Positions 47,937-54,508 of a stretch of DNA of 64,000 nt are shown here, piece after piece. Origin of the DNA: a virus. The stretch covers positions 80,841-144,840 of IMG/VR virus record IMGVR_UViG_3300047547_000041, one strand, 5' to 3'. Each line of letters opens with the position of its first letter. The first letter of the stretch is position 1. Position numbers and translations under genes: made by a program. The notes beneath the pieces were generated by a model that had not been told where the DNA came from, searched no databases, and was given only the letters and a program-made list of their open reading frames with translations.

Positions 47937-49397
47937 TTACAGAGTTGCGCGAACTCGCTTGACGGCTTCCTTAAAGTTGCCATCACGAATATACGGTTCG
48001 GGATTATAGTCATTCATAGCGTAATACAAGATTTCGACATTCTCCCATAGAGGACCGACTTCTTCATAGTGTGCAAAAGTCTTGTATTCACCGGTCACAC
48101 AATTCATGTAAAGCGTTTGAATACCACGCTTCGATTCTTTGCCGGGATCGGTGATAGGACTCTTGTAAATGTTCTTTTCAACACGATCAACAACCACAAA
48201 CGATTGCTTCATGGCAACCTTGAGCCAGTCACGATCACATGCTTGCAGCAGAGCGCCACCCATACCGAAGACGATGTTTTCCGAAGACCAATTAGCATCC
48301 TTCAGAATCTGAAGAATTTTATTGATGCTTTGCATGTTCACACCGTCACCTTGCAGAACACGGATGCAGTCGGGAAGAACCTTGTAACCCTTACTGTTGA
48401 TGGTGTAGCCGAAACCTTCACCCAAAATTTCAAGAATCTTGGGCAAGATCACACGCGCATCACCAGAGTCGGGGCGGACAACAAAACGACCACCAGACTT
48501 GATGATTCGATCCTTGAACACGGTTGCAACACGTTCAGTGAAACGATACACATTAAAGGTATCAGCAACCGCCGAAACGATACCACCCTCACGCTCAAGC
48601 AGACTGACCATCATTTCGAGTGCGTCAATGTCTTCCTTGTTTTCACAGTCACTGTTTGCGCAAGTGACAGAGTGTTCAGAGGCGAGAACGCTGAAAGCGG
48701 GCATGGATGCATCATCTTCTTCATCCAGACCGTAATAGTCATACAAGTGAGTGATTGCTTGCATGGTATCGGTACCGTTGAAACTCAGCAAGTGACCGGA
48801 ACCACCACGACCGGCAGTTTCAACCGAAGATGCGCCACGGAAACCGAAATCATGCAGTGCAAAATCCAACCCACCCATACGGTCATCATCAACGGTTTCT
48901 TGCCAGAACTGACCAATGTTCTGGCGGCACTGATACGACAGGCTTGCAACCGTGATAGGATACCAGATGTTCAGCAGCAGAGGTTCAACATAGGAAACAA
49001 CCCATGCGAAATCGGGGTGGGTGTTGGAAACACCAATCAGAGAATTCTTCAGAGGAATGACAGAACCTTCCTTTGCACCAGTGATGGTTATCGGAAGATA
49101 ACCATTGAACTCGGTCACGATTCGCTTCCAACCTTCATAGTTGAATGCACCGGGCTTCAGGTGACGATCAGCAAAACGCTTGGCACGTTCAACATCTCGC
49201 ATGGTGACAGGCTTGCTCAGGTACTTCTTCACCGTGTAAACGATATCCCAAACAACACTTTGTTCGATACCAACGGTATCACCACGACTCTCGATGTAAG
49301 AGAATGCATAGGTAGTGTTTGCAGGTTCCATCTTCCAGTGACCAACCTTGTAGGAATCGGTCAGCAGGGGCAGAACATCAGAGAGAAAATCAGACAT
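47937..49397 (-). CDS. nadV: Nicotinamide phosphoribosyltransferase (NAMPT)
   Basis: 486 residues from MSDFLSDVLPLLTDSYKVGH with a perfect AAGGAG site. NAMPT motifs: DSYKVGHWKMEP and YIESRGD near the start, FGFRGASSVETAG at about residues 188-200, MPAFSVLASEHSV, RPDSGD in the phosphoribosyl site and GMGGALLQ. It joins nicotinamide and PRPP to make NMN. With the upstream NMN adenylyltransferase it forms a two-step nicotinamide-to-NAD+ route, as in the phage NAD+ reconstitution pathway NARP2 that counters NAD+-depleting defences. No TAG codon. Confidence 0.95.
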   Translation of the reverse strand: MSDFLSDVLPLLTDSYKVGHWKMEPANTTYAFSYIESRGDTVGIEQSVVWDIVYTVKKYLSKPVTMRDVERAKRFADRHLKPGAFNYEGWKRIVTEFNGYLPITITGAKEGSVIPLKNSLIGVSNTHPDFAWVVSYVEPLLLNIWYPITVASLSYQCRQNIGQFWQETVDDDRMGGLDFALHDFGFRGASSVETAGRGGSGHLLSFNGTDTMQAITHLYDYYGLDEEDDASMPAFSVLASEHSVTCANSDCENKEDIDALEMMVSLLEREGGIVSAVADTFNVYRFTERVATVFKDRIIKSGGRFVVRPDSGDARVILPKILEILGEGFGYTINSKGYKVLPDCIRVLQGDGVNMQSINKILQILKDANWSSENIVFGMGGALLQACDRDWLKVAMKQSFVVVDRVEKNIYKSPITDPGKESKRGIQTLYMNCVTGEYKTFAHYEEVGPLWENVEILYYAMNDYNPEPYIRDGNFKEAVKRVRATL

Positions 49398-49428
49398 TTG
49401 AAACTCCTTCAAATTGAGGTTGATGTTT

Positions 49429-49453
49429 ACTTGGGTCTATCCCGTTCAACATG
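49429..49453 (-). promoter_or_regulatory. NAD-salvage leader element (copy 1)
   Basis: The 5' leader contains GAACGGGATAGACCCAAGTA, identical to the leader of the NMN adenylyltransferase gene. A GGG-ATAGA-CCC hairpin is possible within it. Candidate shared regulatory RNA or protein-binding site. Confidence 0.6.
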
Positions 49454-49458
49454 TTGAG

Positions 49459-49487
49459 ATTGTAGCACCCTTTGAACCCGGGTGCAA
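49459..49487 (-). promoter_or_regulatory. Promoter for the NAMPT gene
   Basis: TTGCAC (49482-49487), 17 nt, TACAAT (49459-49464). A GCACCC/GGGTGC inverted repeat lies over the -35 and spacer and could act as a terminator hairpin or operator. Confidence 0.65.
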
Positions 49488-49491
49488 TAGG

Positions 49492-50547
49492 TTATTTGAT
49501 GCGAGAACGCAACGTTTCGATGATGCTGAAGTGATCTTCGAAAATCTTGTGACTGTTTTCGATGATTTCAGCAAATGAAATCCAACGTGCACCGTAGGTT
49601 TCAGTTGGGCAACCCTTGATTTTGGGCAGACGATTTTCACCAACAAGGTTGAAAATGTATGCGTGAGTGATCGTTCGGCCACGGGTAGAACGCAACGGGT
49701 GATCAAAAACTTCGGAACTCACCAACGAACCGCGCATGACCTTTTCAGGCACACCAATGTTGGTTTCTTCATAAAGTTCCTTGATACAGTTGTCAAAAAT
49801 CTTGATATTCTGTTCAAGGAACCCACCCGGAAGTGCGTATTGACCCTTACCGGTGCTTGCCGAACGCTTGACCATCAGGATGTGACCATTACACACAACC
49901 ACAGCGTCAGTGGTGACAAAGGTGGGTGCATATGGCGCGTTGTTCCACGATTCTTTGTAAGCCTTGACAAGTAGATATTCATCAACCATTGCGGCTTCAT
50001 CACTGATGGACCAAAGATCGGTCAAACTCCATGCATCGGCATAGTGAACCTTACCAGACTTGATCAGATTTTGAAATTCCGTGTAATTGGAAAACAACGC
50101 ATCACGGACACGGGTTCCATCGATATCTTGATTGTTTGGAATGTGCATGAAATCAAACCCGAAGATTCGCAGGTAGTAGGTTGTTTCATCCTTATCGGAA
50201 CCAACCACAACCACATCTTTGGGATTGTAGGTCATGTTTCGAGTTTCAAACCATTGACGAACAGTGCTTTGAATTTGTTGAACCCACTGCGCATCATTGT
50301 AGAGATAGTCTTGCGCAAACGACAACGTGAATTCATCACGGTTGTAACGACTTGTAAGCGCACGATCAATGATCTTCATGCGGATTTGGTGGGGAACCGG
50401 GTTTCGAATGCTTGGCGCAGAAAACGCAGAACCGACAACGATCAGAGTGTGATCAGCAGTTTTGTTGGCAGCTTCGAAAAGTTCAAAATGACCACTGTGA
50501 GGCAGTGGTTGAAAACGCCCAATGACTAGGGCCAGCTTGTATGACAT
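49492..50547 (-). CDS. nadM: NMN adenylyltransferase / Nudix hydrolase (bifunctional)
   Basis: 351 residues. N-terminal domain: VIGRFQPLPHSGHFELFEAA with the HxGH nucleotidyltransferase signature, then IRNPVPHQIRMKII and VGSDKDETTYYL. C-terminal domain: GGFLEQNIKIFDNCIKELYE then ET, a Nudix box with Lys for the usual Arg. It makes NAD+ from NMN and ATP; the Nudix part may hydrolyse ADP-ribose or related compounds. AAAGGAG precedes the ATG. Works with the NAMPT just downstream. Confidence 0.92.
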   Translation of the reverse strand: MSYKLALVIGRFQPLPHSGHFELFEAANKTADHTLIVVGSAFSAPSIRNPVPHQIRMKIIDRALTSRYNRDEFTLSFAQDYLYNDAQWVQQIQSTVRQWFETRNMTYNPKDVVVVGSDKDETTYYLRIFGFDFMHIPNNQDIDGTRVRDALFSNYTEFQNLIKSGKVHYADAWSLTDLWSISDEAAMVDEYLLVKAYKESWNNAPYAPTFVTTDAVVVCNGHILMVKRSASTGKGQYALPGGFLEQNIKIFDNCIKELYEETNIGVPEKVMRGSLVSSEVFDHPLRSTRGRTITHAYIFNLVGENRLPKIKGCPTETYGARWISFAEIIENSHKIFEDHFSIIETLRSRIK

Positions 50548-50572
50548 ACAAAACTCCTTTGCAAATAAAACC

Positions 50573-50598
50573 TACTTGGGTCTATCCCGTTCGGCATG
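50573..50598 (-). promoter_or_regulatory. NAD-salvage leader element (copy 2)
   Basis: CATGCCGAACGGGATAGACC and the next bases match the copy before the NAMPT gene except at two or three positions. It lies between the promoter and the AAAGGAG site. Confidence 0.6.
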
Positions 50599-50602
50599 GT
50601 AC

Positions 50603-50893
50603 TTACTTTACCAGTTGGAATGTCTTTTTGTCAACCTGTTGACGCCACAAAAACACGTTCGTCATATGGGCATACAACCTACCTACAGATTGATCACCAA
50701 GAATAGAGTAACTGTAGCACAGTTGCCCCTTTTTGATTGGTTCACGTTCAAGTTGGTTGATGAAGTATTCCCAAAACAGTTGTGATTCTTCAGTCTCAGC
50801 GTTGTCAAATTCTTGAATCGCTTGATCAACTACAGCACACCAACGGTTTTTCTTGACCGATACAATCTTCGTAGCCTAAACGTTTCCGGTCAT
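50603..50893 (-). CDS. Hypothetical protein with TAG at codon 6
   Basis: 96 codons from ATG 50893, overlapping the upstream stop (ATGA). TAG at 50876-50878, then an uninterrupted frame (ATKIVSVKKNRWCAVVDQAI, EEIS-type acidic middle, LYAHMTNVFLWRQQ) to TAA 50603. Without TAG readthrough the gene would have no start in this frame until far inside. The 3' end holds the promoter for the next gene. Confidence 0.65.
50605..50634 (-). promoter_or_regulatory. Probable promoter for the NMN adenylyltransferase gene
   Basis: TTGACA (50629-50634), 18 nt, TAAAGT (50605-50610), inside the end of the upstream gene. Confidence 0.5.
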
Positions 50894-51162: not shown

Positions 51163-51463
51163 CTTCACACCTCAAATAGTTAGAGATTGAGTGATACTTC
51201 TCGATACGATCAACTTTTTGTTTGGCAACATCTTTGTCAATCAAAGGGTCGGTAATACCAAGTTCATGCTTGAGCATCATCATACACGAAAACAGTTCAG
51301 AAAACTCGGTAAAGAGATGTTCAATGTTGGTTTTCTCCAACACCACACCATCAGAGGTTTGTTGATGGTTGTGGTAGCCAAACTTTTGACACTTGGACTA
51401 TGCTTGTGCAACTTCAGCACACTCTTCCATGACCGACAGACCGATAAAATCAATTCGCTTCAT
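51146..51463 (-). CDS. MazG-like nucleotide pyrophosphohydrolase-type protein (one TAG)
   Basis: 105 codons from MKRIDFIGLSVMEECAEVAQ. TAG at 51397-51399 inside the first helix pair (AQA-TAG-SKCQKFG), matching the MazG-type pattern E-x-x-E-x-x-x-A-x-S-K-x-x-R/K-F-G. A second helix NIEHLFTEFSELF follows. Family members cleave noncanonical nucleoside triphosphates. Its start overlaps the gp46 stop. Confidence 0.65.
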
Positions 51464-53166
51464 CACTTTCCTTCCAAGTAGCTGAACCCGTCAACGTCCT
51501 TAGAGAACGTCACAACATCATCAAACAGGTGGGTGATACCGGTGTCAGTTGCCTTGTGAGAAACCACATAGACGCCCATATCATCAAATTCCTTATCGTA
51601 GAACATTTCAATCATGGTCACGAATGAATCACCGGCAAGGGTTTCCAGAACTTCGTCACAGAACAGAATGTTACACTGGAACTTCGCCTTCAACTGGCTA
51701 ATCTTTCGGAATGCCATCAAGATAGCCATGTCCAACTTTGCCTTCTCGCCACGACTCAAATTGTTGTAGCTGAAGTTGTCGCGATCACGACTCAGAATCT
51801 GCTCATTGAATTCACCATCAAAACTGAATTTTGTTGACAGTTCAAGCATGTCGGTGTAATCATAAACAGCAGAGTTGAACTCTGACAGGTATTGCTCGAT
51901 AACCGATTTCTTGATACCGTCATCCTTCAGAATTTGAGTCATCACCGCGCCGATTGAAACTTGTTCTTGCAGCTTGGCGATTTCGCCCTTCATGGTCTTG
52001 GCACGGGCAGCAATCGATTTTGCTTCTTCCTTAGCTTCGGTCAGCTTACTTTCATCAATGCTTTGTAGCTTTGATTTGATTTGTGATGCACGTTGTTTGA
52101 TAGAGTTTGACTCGGTGCTGATCATCTGAAGTTGCTGAATCAGGTTTGTGGATTCTTGGCGAAGGTCGGCTGGTTCAACAAGAACACCAAAGTTTTCAAT
52201 CTTGTCGAGCGTCTTAGCGAGTTTGTCTTTCGCCCCAACAATACATTCTTCAGCATGTGCAATTGTTCGGTCAACCTTTTCACCGGAAATAGAACTTGAA
52301 CATGTTGGACAAACACCAGCGATCTTCTTCTTTTTCTCAGCGTCTTCAATTTCTTGCTTGTATTTGATAACCGAATTCTTGAGATTTTGCAGTTCTCGTT
52401 CACGGTCATAGTACGCATCAAGTTGTTCCTTGATTTTCTGACTTTGTTCGGTCAGCTTTTCATAGGGTTCGGTGACTTCCTGATACTTCAGACGACACTC
52501 TTCCAACTCATTGGTAAGTGTGGTCTTTTGATCACCAAGCATTTCACTGATGGTTTCGACAGTCTTGGTAGCGAGTTGGAACTTTTCTTTCAGGGCTTCA
52601 TAGTTGTTTTGCATTGTCTGCAAATTCTTCTGAGCGTCCTTATATTCCTTGGCGTGAATATCCTTCATCATCGTGAGAATACCAAGGTCAATGATTTCGT
52701 CAACAAATGACCGGCGTTCGGCAGCTTTCATCATCATGAACGGTTGATAGTTTTCAACGCTGATCATGACGGTTCGGATGAAGTGCTTGTAGTCGCAACC
52801 AATCACGCTATCGAGGTATGTCTGATAGTCGCCAACGCGCGTTTGGTCAAGCAAAACGCCATCTTCATAGATTTCAAAGATGTTAGGCTTGATGCCACGG
52901 ACAACACGATATTCAATTGTTCCGCGATTGAACTCGATTTCGGTGACGCAATTCTTGTTGTTGATGGTGTTGACAATCTGAGGCTTGTTAAGTTCCTTGA
53001 TAGGCTTACCGAACAGCGCAAACACAACAGCCGAAACCAGTGTTGACTTGCCAGCACCATTTTTACCAACAATCAAGAACTTTCCGTGCTGAAAATCAAA
53101 CTCAATCTCAGCGTTACCGGTAGAAAAGAAGTTCTTGTACTTGACTTTCTTGAAATTTACGATCAT
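51463..53166 (-). CDS. 46: Recombination nuclease subunit gp46 (SbcC/Rad50-like)
   Basis: 567 residues (T4 gp46 is 560). Walker A VGKNGAGKSTLV (about residues 33-44), two long coiled coils about a zinc hook CPTCSS, signature LSRGEKAKLDMAI and Walker B NILFCDEVLETLAG. It forms the end-resection complex with gp47 and prepares ends for UvsX. Overlaps gp47 by 4 nt. No TAG codon. Confidence 0.95.
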   Translation of the reverse strand: MIVNFKKVKYKNFFSTGNAEIEFDFQHGKFLIVGKNGAGKSTLVSAVVFALFGKPIKELNKPQIVNTINNKNCVTEIEFNRGTIEYRVVRGIKPNIFEIYEDGVLLDQTRVGDYQTYLDSVIGCDYKHFIRTVMISVENYQPFMMMKAAERRSFVDEIIDLGILTMMKDIHAKEYKDAQKNLQTMQNNYEALKEKFQLATKTVETISEMLGDQKTTLTNELEECRLKYQEVTEPYEKLTEQSQKIKEQLDAYYDRERELQNLKNSVIKYKQEIEDAEKKKKIAGVCPTCSSSISGEKVDRTIAHAEECIVGAKDKLAKTLDKIENFGVLVEPADLRQESTNLIQQLQMISTESNSIKQRASQIKSKLQSIDESKLTEAKEEAKSIAARAKTMKGEIAKLQEQVSIGAVMTQILKDDGIKKSVIEQYLSEFNSAVYDYTDMLELSTKFSFDGEFNEQILSRDRDNFSYNNLSRGEKAKLDMAILMAFRKISQLKAKFQCNILFCDEVLETLAGDSFVTMIEMFYDKEFDDMGVYVVSHKATDTGITHLFDDVVTFSKDVDGFSYLEGK

Positions 53167-54230
53167 TGTGGTGTAGTCTCCGCAACAGTTTTGAGTCTAT
53201 TCAACTCGTTCATGATTTTTTCCTTGTCGAAATCGGTGTCCATCTTCTGAACAAAGTTGCTCATGATGGTGTCAATGTCCGAGTCTACCACAGTTGGCGC
53301 GGGCGTTTGTTCTTCACCGTCTTCAGTTTCGGTGACAACCTCAGTCTTAACGAATACCGTTTTATCGATGGTGTTCACAGTGTGAGGATTGGCCTTAGCG
53401 ACAGCATCCATGTACTTGTTGAAAGTCTTCATGTTGGTGCGCTTTTTGATGATGATGCGAACCTTTTTTCCGGCAATTTCGCCAATCTCGTTCTTTTCAT
53501 CTTCATGGTAGTCAAGACTCACATGAACCTTGTTCGGGTTCTCGATACGCGCGATCTTACCCGTTTCGGTATCGAGCACTTCAAAGCCCCGGGAACAGCC
53601 GTAATCGGCCCATGTCAGTTCGTAAGGTGTGCCGACATACCGAACGTTGTCCTTGGTGCTTGGTTCGTGATAGTGCCCGCTAAACACGGTCTTGAACTTA
53701 TCGAAAATTTCGGTATGGTTCAAACCATGGGTCGCATTTCGACCCTTGTAAAGTGGGAAGTCGTTAAACTCGAAGTGACCGACACAATACTTCTTTTCAG
53801 TCTCATTCAGAAACTTCATCATCGAGTCATGATTGGTCTGATTGATCCATGGAACAATGGCGAAACTACCCCATTCGATAGGTTCATTATCGACCACAAC
53901 AAAGTGTTCATTATCGGGAACAATCGAACGAATCGCGTTAACTCGATTAGTGTTCTTATAGGTCGAATCATGGTTGCCACACAGAATGACACACTTCATA
54001 CCATATTCAACAATCTTCTCGAAAAAGAAACTTTGAACACTCATTACACTTTCATAACTTGCGCCCTTTGGACGGTCGAACAAGTCACCAGTTTGAATGA
54101 TGTGATAAATCTTGTTCTTGATCAGTGTCGGGAAAAACACATCATCAAAAAACTGTTTCTGGTACTGCATGTAATACAAATCACCATTACCAATATCAAA
54201 GTGGGTGTCACCCAAAATCGCAATACGCAT
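53163..54230 (-). CDS. 47: Recombination nuclease subunit gp47 (SbcD/Mre11-like)
   Basis: 355 residues from MRIAILGDTHF. Phosphoesterase motifs: GDTHFDIG, TGDLFDRP, LCGNHDST, VGHFEFND and FSGHYHEP. Nuclease partner of gp46. The C-terminal region is Glu/Asp-rich and less conserved. Confidence 0.95.
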   Translation of the reverse strand: MRIAILGDTHFDIGNGDLYYMQYQKQFFDDVFFPTLIKNKIYHIIQTGDLFDRPKGASYESVMSVQSFFFEKIVEYGMKCVILCGNHDSTYKNTNRVNAIRSIVPDNEHFVVVDNEPIEWGSFAIVPWINQTNHDSMMKFLNETEKKYCVGHFEFNDFPLYKGRNATHGLNHTEIFDKFKTVFSGHYHEPSTKDNVRYVGTPYELTWADYGCSRGFEVLDTETGKIARIENPNKVHVSLDYHEDEKNEIGEIAGKKVRIIIKKRTNMKTFNKYMDAVAKANPHTVNTIDKTVFVKTEVVTETEDGEEQTPAPTVVDSDIDTIMSNFVQKMDTDFDKEKIMNELNRLKTVAETTPQ

Positions 54231-54232
54231 TA

Positions 54233-54508
54233 TCAGTTTCTCCAAGTTGCTTTGGCTTCAACTTCAGCAAATGTTGTTTGCTCAATTTCAATGAGTTGAT
54301 CCAAGAAATGATTCGCCAGTTTAACCCACAATTCGCACGCAAGACCTGCATGAACAACTCTATCAATCTTTTCCAGAACATTCAGTGCAGTGAAATCCCA
54401 ATCGTTTGTTTCCTTGAAAAACTTCGTGATAACGGGTTCACACAATTCTTCAGGTGCTGTGCGCAGAAGTTCAACAGTTTGGGCGATATCGCCAGTAAAT
54501 TTCAACAT
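54233..54508 (-). CDS. Small hypothetical protein upstream of 47
   Basis: 91 residues, helical (AQTVELLRTAPEELCEPVIT, KLANHFLDQLIEIEQ). Two bases before gp47. No family recognised; a small replication or recombination accessory is possible. Confidence 0.55.
   Translation of the reverse strand: MLKFTGDIAQTVELLRTAPEELCEPVITKFFKETNDWDFTALNVLEKIDRVVHAGLACELWVKLANHFLDQLIEIEQTTFAEVEAKATWRN

Follow-up and report, generated by a model that had tools for sequence, protein, structure and literature searches.

The 64-kb stretch of DNA analysed here (the window) is part of a virus record of 144,840 bases and carries, on its minus strand, two genes of NAD+ salvage. One encodes a nicotinamide phosphoribosyltransferase (NAMPT, NadV; 47937–49397), 486 residues long when counted from the ATG and recognised by PF04095 and PF18127 as well as by phrog_448. 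The other encodes an NMN adenylyltransferase fused to a Nudix hydrolase (NadM-Nudix, 351 residues, 49492–50547; PF01467 and PF00293), whose nearest solved structure is the bifunctional NMN adenylyltransferase/Nudix hydrolase of PDB entry 2qjo (E 2e-68). SbcC-like and SbcD-like recombination nuclease genes lie directly upstream of the pair (51463–54245, minus strand). The gene pair is that of NARP2, the phage NAD+ reconstitution pathway built from NAMPT and NMNAT that serves as a counter-defence; NARP2 is mentioned in PMC12028318, and NadV/NadM salvage is described in PMC9503650.

A preliminary description of the locus had given each gene a promoter of its own. This holds well for nadM, which is preceded by a sigma-70-like promoter (TTGACA-18-TAAAGT, 50605–50634, minus strand; a consensus match from a promoter scan) with a predicted RNA start about 3 nt before the hairpin called H1 below. 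For NAMPT the evidence is limited to a possible −10 box, TACAAT (49459–49464, minus strand), read from the sequence and below the threshold of the scan, with a weak candidate −35 (TTGCAC) across a 17-nt spacer; the predicted RNA start then falls at H1 itself. In both leaders the predicted RNA begins within about 3 nt of H1, leaving little room for other elements. The same description had reported a 20-nt core present in the two leaders and nowhere else in the window. Indeed, GAACGGGATAGACCCAAGTA occurs exactly at 50573–50592 and at 49428–49447 (both minus strand), one copy preceding the NadM-Nudix gene and one the NAMPT gene; no further copy is found in the window at up to three mismatches (0.01 expected), and these two are the only exact copies in the full record. 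Both genes use the Shine-Dalgarno (SD) sequence AAGGAGTTT, and an AAGGAG site follows the core in each leader as claimed, at 18 nt for NAMPT and 13 nt for nadM, so that the "similar distance" originally reported is a loose description.

Each of the two leaders can be drawn as two consecutive hairpins, H1 and H2, the second of which, containing the SD, had been missed in the preliminary description. In the NAMPT leader, H1 spans 49423–49452 (minus strand; matched by both covariance models described below) and is composed of a stem P1 (AUGUU/AACAU, 49452–49448 with 49427–49423), an internal loop GAAC/AAGUA, a stem P2 (GGG/CCC, 49443–49441 with 49435–49433) and the loop AUAGA (49440–49436). The H1 of the nadM leader (50570–50595, minus strand; matched by the first model) has P1 GCC/GGU (50595–50593 with 50572–50570), the same internal loop, P2 GGG/CCC (50588–50586 with 50580–50578) and again the loop AUAGA (50585–50581). 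Comparing the two copies, both strands of P1 differ, yet the pairing is kept. H2 is AUUUGAA[GGAGU]UUCAAAU in the NAMPT leader (49396–49414, minus strand; 7 bp, folding on its own) and UGCAAA[GGAGU]UUUGUA in the nadM leader (50547–50563, minus strand). The stems are thus 6–7 bp long, the SD lies in the loop in both, and the 3′ arm reaches into the start codon, ending in its AU for NAMPT and in its A for nadM. A scan for GGA-loop hairpins before other open reading frames of at least 50 codons in the window gave only weak or unconvincing candidates. For the NAMPT leader RNAfold favours the two hairpins, for the nadM leader an alternative fold, and single-sequence folding of the window leaders is no better than that of shuffled sequences; the case for the structure therefore rests on covariation and not on energy.

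The exact 20-mer proved to be private to this phage. It was found in no other viral contig of IMG/VR, a degenerate core (GAACNNNATAGANNNAAGTA) gave 118 stretches in IMG/VR, none of which, when inspected, could plausibly be the element, and blastn searches of phage genomes with the nadM gene and leaders, or with the core, returned nothing useful. What recurs in relatives with the same genes is the structure. Phaeobacter phage MD18, Synechococcus phage B23 and Xanthomonas phage LucasX, relatives at about 40% identity, have an AUAGA-loop hairpin and an SD-loop hairpin in both leaders, and the stems of the AUAGA hairpin are wholly different from case to case: GGCGUGGGG[AUAGA]CCCCGCGCC, CCAGAAA[AUAGA]UUUCUGG and CCGGCGG[AUAGA]CCGCCGG. 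Thus the search for the motif in phages that had been proposed with the preliminary description fails for the exact 20-mer and succeeds for the two-hairpin structure, and the absence of conservation in relatives that would have spoken against the element is not what we observe. The element is not universal among relatives: a clear H1 is missing in the closest ones first found, L003 (63% identical NAMPT) and L007 (Pseudomonas phage Milchi). The H1 of the window leaders, in which P2 is separated from P1 by GAAC/AAGUA, is an internal-loop variant, similar forms of which occur in L228 (AUGC-aa-GGGG[AUAGA]CCCC-aa-GCAU), L247, L285 (ACC-aa-GAGG[AUAGA]CCUC-aa-GGU) and L287.

A survey of 160 IMG/VR loci, yielding 233 distinct leaders, was used to obtain the frequencies of such hairpins; the loci were gathered via NAMPT and NadM, and the frequencies describe the leaders of those genes, while copies ahead of other genes may have escaped the survey. 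Among hairpins with a stem of at least 4 bp, the commonest 5-nt loops in the 233 leaders are GGAGU (75), AUAGA (66), GGAGC (31), GGAGA (25) and AGAGA (17). An ANAGA hairpin is present in 40% of 234 NAD-gene leaders compared with 1.2% of 321 control leaders, which belong to other genes of these contigs (shuffled sequences, 0–0.9%), and the GGA-loop SD hairpin in 73% compared with 5.6% (shuffled sequences, less than 1%). Fisher tests give p values of 7e-36 for H1 and 4e-66 for H2, to be read with the restriction that related leaders are not independent.

Two covariance models were built. The first, R1, is based on 51 leaders with the window left out, linkers being cut to 9 nt for a gap-free alignment at the model-building stage only. 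In its alignment 98% of the cells pair and each of the 12 pairs shows changes in both partners, figures that are inflated since the sequences were chosen for their stems; the outer pairs, which lay outside the selection criterion, are formed in 90–96%. In an unfiltered search of the whole window, R1 ranks the nadM leader first (21.4 bits; E 0.013 over the window, a rough value from a short calibration) and the NAMPT leader second (17.7 bits), the next match scoring 10.0 bits. The second model, R2, was made from 125 natural matches, including the nadM leader of the window and excluding its NAMPT leader; it scores the two leaders at 29.4 and 29.7 bits, respectively, with no third match in the record. 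Here 96% of the cells are paired and all 12 pairs vary on both sides, again inflated by selection and model fitting, and RNAalifold recovers the same two hairpins. The covariation that the preliminary description had suggested looking for is thus present. A rival reading is that the core is a chance or recently duplicated 20-mer confined to this phage. The absence of the exact sequence from every other viral contig would suit that reading, and the identity of the two copies does make recent copying or conversion between the leaders likely; however, a covariance model to which only other phages contributed picks out precisely this pair of sites. The ranking of the window by R1, the matches in other phage records and the leader statistics refute it, and we consider it scarcely credible. 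The earlier claim of a shared element therefore stands insofar as genes of a single pathway have a conserved leader element in common, and falls for the 20-mer as its conserved unit, the conserved entity being an ANAGA hairpin followed by an SD hairpin.

In summary form, the element starts with H1, a covarying stem of free sequence closed by an ANAGA loop, continues with a linker of roughly 6–14 nt and ends with H2, a mostly A-U hairpin weaker than H1, which holds the GGAG of the SD in a 5-nt loop and lies against the start codon. The conserved bases are four positions of the H1 loop, the GGA of H2 and the A-U closing pair of H2. The linker has no conserved column and is highly variable in length. 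Among 159 H1 loops, 110 read ANAGA, 15 GNAGU and two AUGGA or GUGGA. Positions 1 and 5 of this loop covary (A and A in 123 of 159, G and U in 19 of 159), and its GNAGU form resembles the GGAGU loop of H2. One phage group has switched both positions together to GUAGU or GCAGU in its nadM leaders (L184, L188, L191, L197, L201, L204 and L206–L208). A covarying H1 with an ANAGA or GNAGU loop, then an SD-loop H2, ahead of a gene of NAD metabolism, may serve to delimit a new family, and both window leaders show this arrangement.

The distribution of the element follows the genes of NAD supply. R1 finds it in 26 of 36 whole phage records, and of 27 phage matches traced to genes, 21 precede nadM, NAMPT, NadA or PnuC; of the other six genes, G031 accounts for two, immediately ahead of nadM, and G001 for one, a small gene again upstream of nadM, and the last three have no known role. 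PnuC lies under the element in two cases (PF04973, E 2e-37 and 7e-46) and NadA in two phages (PF02445, E about 1e-84), both counts including L225 and L249. Phages that encode NadA (quinolinate synthase) in addition to the salvage pair, under the same element, are seen at L249:1417–2310 and L322 (G013:C1:70107). In G002, G027 and G031, tens to hundreds of kb separate NAMPT from nadM, and a copy of the element is present at either gene. A tandem spread is observed in L319 (G031:C1:72842–74019, minus strand), in which genes for a 99-residue protein, a weakly DUF6745-like protein of 238 residues and nadM follow one another with a near-identical element on each, reaching genes without a known role in NAD metabolism. 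Phage carriers include a cyanophage, a roseophage, a Xanthomonas phage and many uncultured large phages.

The element also occurs in bacterial chromosomes, before NAMPT and usually before nadM. NAMPT loci bearing it were found in Xanthomonas, Lysobacter, Paraburkholderia, Pseudoalteromonas, Thalassolituus, Methyloversatilis, Sulfurovaceae and a cyanobacterial MAG, the carriers thus belonging to Lysobacterales, Burkholderiales, marine gammaproteobacteria, Campylobacterota and a cyanobacterium. In whole bacterial genomes, 12 of 20 contain matches, all of them nadM or NAMPT leaders except for one weak match (24 bits) with no open reading frame found behind it. About 700 more genomes, screened with a strict prefilter, gave a handful of matches, and those inspected are NAD leaders; random genomes of Pseudomonadota, Cyanobacteriota and Bacteroidota gave almost none, a weak absence given the strict first-look filter.

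Taken together, the strong covariation and the gene specificity make co-regulation by an RNA-based mechanism, as had been proposed from the window, the best reading, and the element is almost certainly a real cis-regulatory RNA of NAD genes. It could be argued that the hairpins sense nothing and simply stabilise the RNA or fix the rate of translation, having spread with the operon. Hairpins at the 5′ end protect RNA, and the H1 of the window is a stable hairpin of this kind, within about 3 nt of the predicted RNA start. A mere stabiliser, however, needs neither loop letters that are kept while the stems are free nor the joint presence of H1 and H2 on unlinked genes of the same pathway in one genome (G002, G027 and G031), and we regard this explanation as quite improbable. 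The presence of the SD in the loop of H2 (73% of NAD leaders), together with the placement of the 3′ arm at the start codon, makes a translational switch the natural reading.

Concerning known systems, Rfam (release 15) gives no match in either window leader even at E 10 and none across the window, nor any at the element in the further loci examined, six from phages and nine from bacteria. The nadA gene is the one under the NAD+-I riboswitch (nadA motif), which is likewise a leader RNA on NAD-making genes, and nadA itself bears the present element in two phages; yet Rfam gives no hit at the element in the loci tested, and loops and layout appear unlike those of the nadA motif. The preliminary description had likewise seen no resemblance to that riboswitch. 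The NAD+-II riboswitch (pnuC motif) is closer in position, being a leader RNA on a gene for an NAD precursor at the ribosome-binding site, and pnuC is among the genes bearing the element (two cases). Whereas in NAD+-II the SD strand is base-paired to a strand upstream of it as part of a pseudoknot, with an A5 strand forming a triplex in the minor groove of P1 and with a conserved core (PMC10085692), the present element has two hairpins that stand apart, leaves the SD unpaired in the second loop and lacks a conserved linker. Our alignment contains neither an A5 strand nor any conserved sequence able to pair with the SD. The accessible papers on NARP2 do not mention an RNA element, and no paper on an NAD RNA element in phages was found, in a literature search that covered sources outside the subscription journals. 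The element hence has the appearance of a regulatory RNA family not described before, acting on the supply of NAD.

Which factor reads the element is a matter of graded likelihood. It may act as a small translational riboswitch, the RNA binding NAD+, NMN or another metabolite of the pathway between H1 and H2 and so closing the SD hairpin. The genes concerned (pnuC and nadA twice each, nadM and NAMPT) are those under known bacterial NAD riboswitches, pnuC for NAD+-II (PMC7749635, PMC10085692), and a short element beside the SD, distributed over phages and several bacterial phyla, would suit a self-contained RNA. The pattern of conservation speaks against it: few unpaired bases are kept (four in the H1 loop, GGA in H2 and none in the linker), and the linker varies greatly in length. 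Since there is no conservation beyond the two loops and the closing pair of H2, we lean towards a protein rather than an aptamer, the preliminary description having offered both a metabolite-sensing RNA and an RNA-binding protein. The absence of the element from the NAMPT genes of genomes without NadM-Nudix, even within the same genera, is a further argument against a riboswitch, which we nevertheless regard as a serious, if less likely, alternative. The covariation of loop positions 1 and 5 and the likeness of GNAGU to GGAGU are as expected if one protein reads both hairpins.

Such a protein could be another RNA-binding factor of the host or phage acting in the manner of CsrA/RsmA, whose target leaders also have two hairpins with similar loops, one of them showing the SD, and are repressed by blocked ribosome binding. 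The spacing of the two loops, about 20–30 nt apart with one on the SD, resembles that of a CsrA target, and the few AUGGA and GUGGA loops of H1 fit ANGGA or nearly so. But the dominant loop is ANAGA and lacks the GGA, the ANGGA-like letters being found in just 2 of 159 upstream loops, and the restriction to NAD genes is unlike a global regulator; we judge this explanation unlikely. As for CsrA itself (PF02599), it is present in most gammaproteobacterial carriers, but it was rejected as the factor on account of the mismatched loop letters and its absence from the carriers G033, G034, G035, G036 and G042 and from all seven phage records tested.

The element follows NadM-Nudix, and this is what favours that protein as the repressor. 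NadM-Nudix is encoded in 39 of 39 element-bearing records, a figure biased by the sampling, the loci having been fetched by NAMPT or NadM; under the same bias, the element is present in none of 16 NAMPT genomes without NadM-Nudix, so that it is found only where the protein is encoded, as a PyrR-like arrangement would require. Where nadM lies close by, 48 of 55 bacterial NAMPT loci carry the element; where it does not, 1 of 25 does, and this lone exception (L387, Alcanivorax) has nadM elsewhere in the genome under its own element. In the NAMPT tree, members lacking both the element and NadM-Nudix are nested among carriers (Paraburkholderia, Luteibacter/Dyella, Lysobacter, Pseudoxanthomonas and marine gammaproteobacteria). 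This co-loss could reflect the loss of the whole operon junction and not of a regulator. A Pseudoxanthomonas genome has two NAMPT genes, one adjacent to nadM with the element (L439 in G774) and a lone one without it (L357); this element-less paralog in a genome with NadM-Nudix is a point against the model. Moreover, NadM-Nudix phages without the element exist (G028, the KVP40 group and others, as well as L003 and L007), which indicates that the protein does not require it.

We therefore favour, tentatively, feedback control of the translation of NAD genes through a leader RNA acting in cis, with NadM-Nudix as the putative repressor. H1 would form stably and display its ANAGA (or GNAGU) loop, whereas H2, with the SD as its loop and its 3′ arm reaching the start codon, would be the site at which ribosome access is controlled. 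When NAD is plentiful, a factor reading the loop of H1, and probably the similar loop of H2 too, would keep H2 shut and ribosome entry blocked; when NAD is low, as may occur during phage infection, for example after an NADase defence, H2 would open and NAMPT, NadM, PnuC or NadA would be made. The factor is most likely a protein, and NadM-Nudix, which binds NMN, NAD and ADP-ribose by its known chemistry, is the best candidate, presumably repressing its own operon much as PyrR does. The likeness to PyrR is that an enzyme of a nucleotide pathway would recognise a hairpin loop of its own message and respond to what the pathway produces; PyrR acts by attenuation, whereas control here would be translational, and the NadM-Nudix fold is unrelated. 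To our knowledge no NadM-Nudix is known to bind RNA, and the literature search returned no paper on such binding. The fuller proposal, that NadM is an RNA-binding translational repressor sensing NAD (or ADP-ribose) and two NAG-loop hairpins, in a regulon common to phages and bacteria that turns on phage NAD+ reconstitution when defences drain NAD, is plausible but still rather speculative.

If true, this would add to the leader RNAs linked to NAD a family that Rfam 15 does not contain, with a bearing on the timing of NAD+ reconstitution by phages that face NADase defences. Two outcomes are in view: an NAD metabolite is sensed directly by some 45 nt of RNA, or an enzyme of NAD metabolism has a second role as repressor. 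The element may also serve as a marker for further NAD-related genes, namely PnuC, NadA and small unknown genes in phages and a Band_7 gene in bacteria. In phage G013, a good copy (L322, G013:C1:73413, minus strand) precedes a gene for a 346-residue protein without a Pfam match, in which a DnaJ-like stretch is seen by eye. In marine gammaproteobacteria, a Band_7/SPFH gene downstream of NAMPT bears the element (L350:4939, L369:4032 and L370:4492) and may belong to the NAD regulon.
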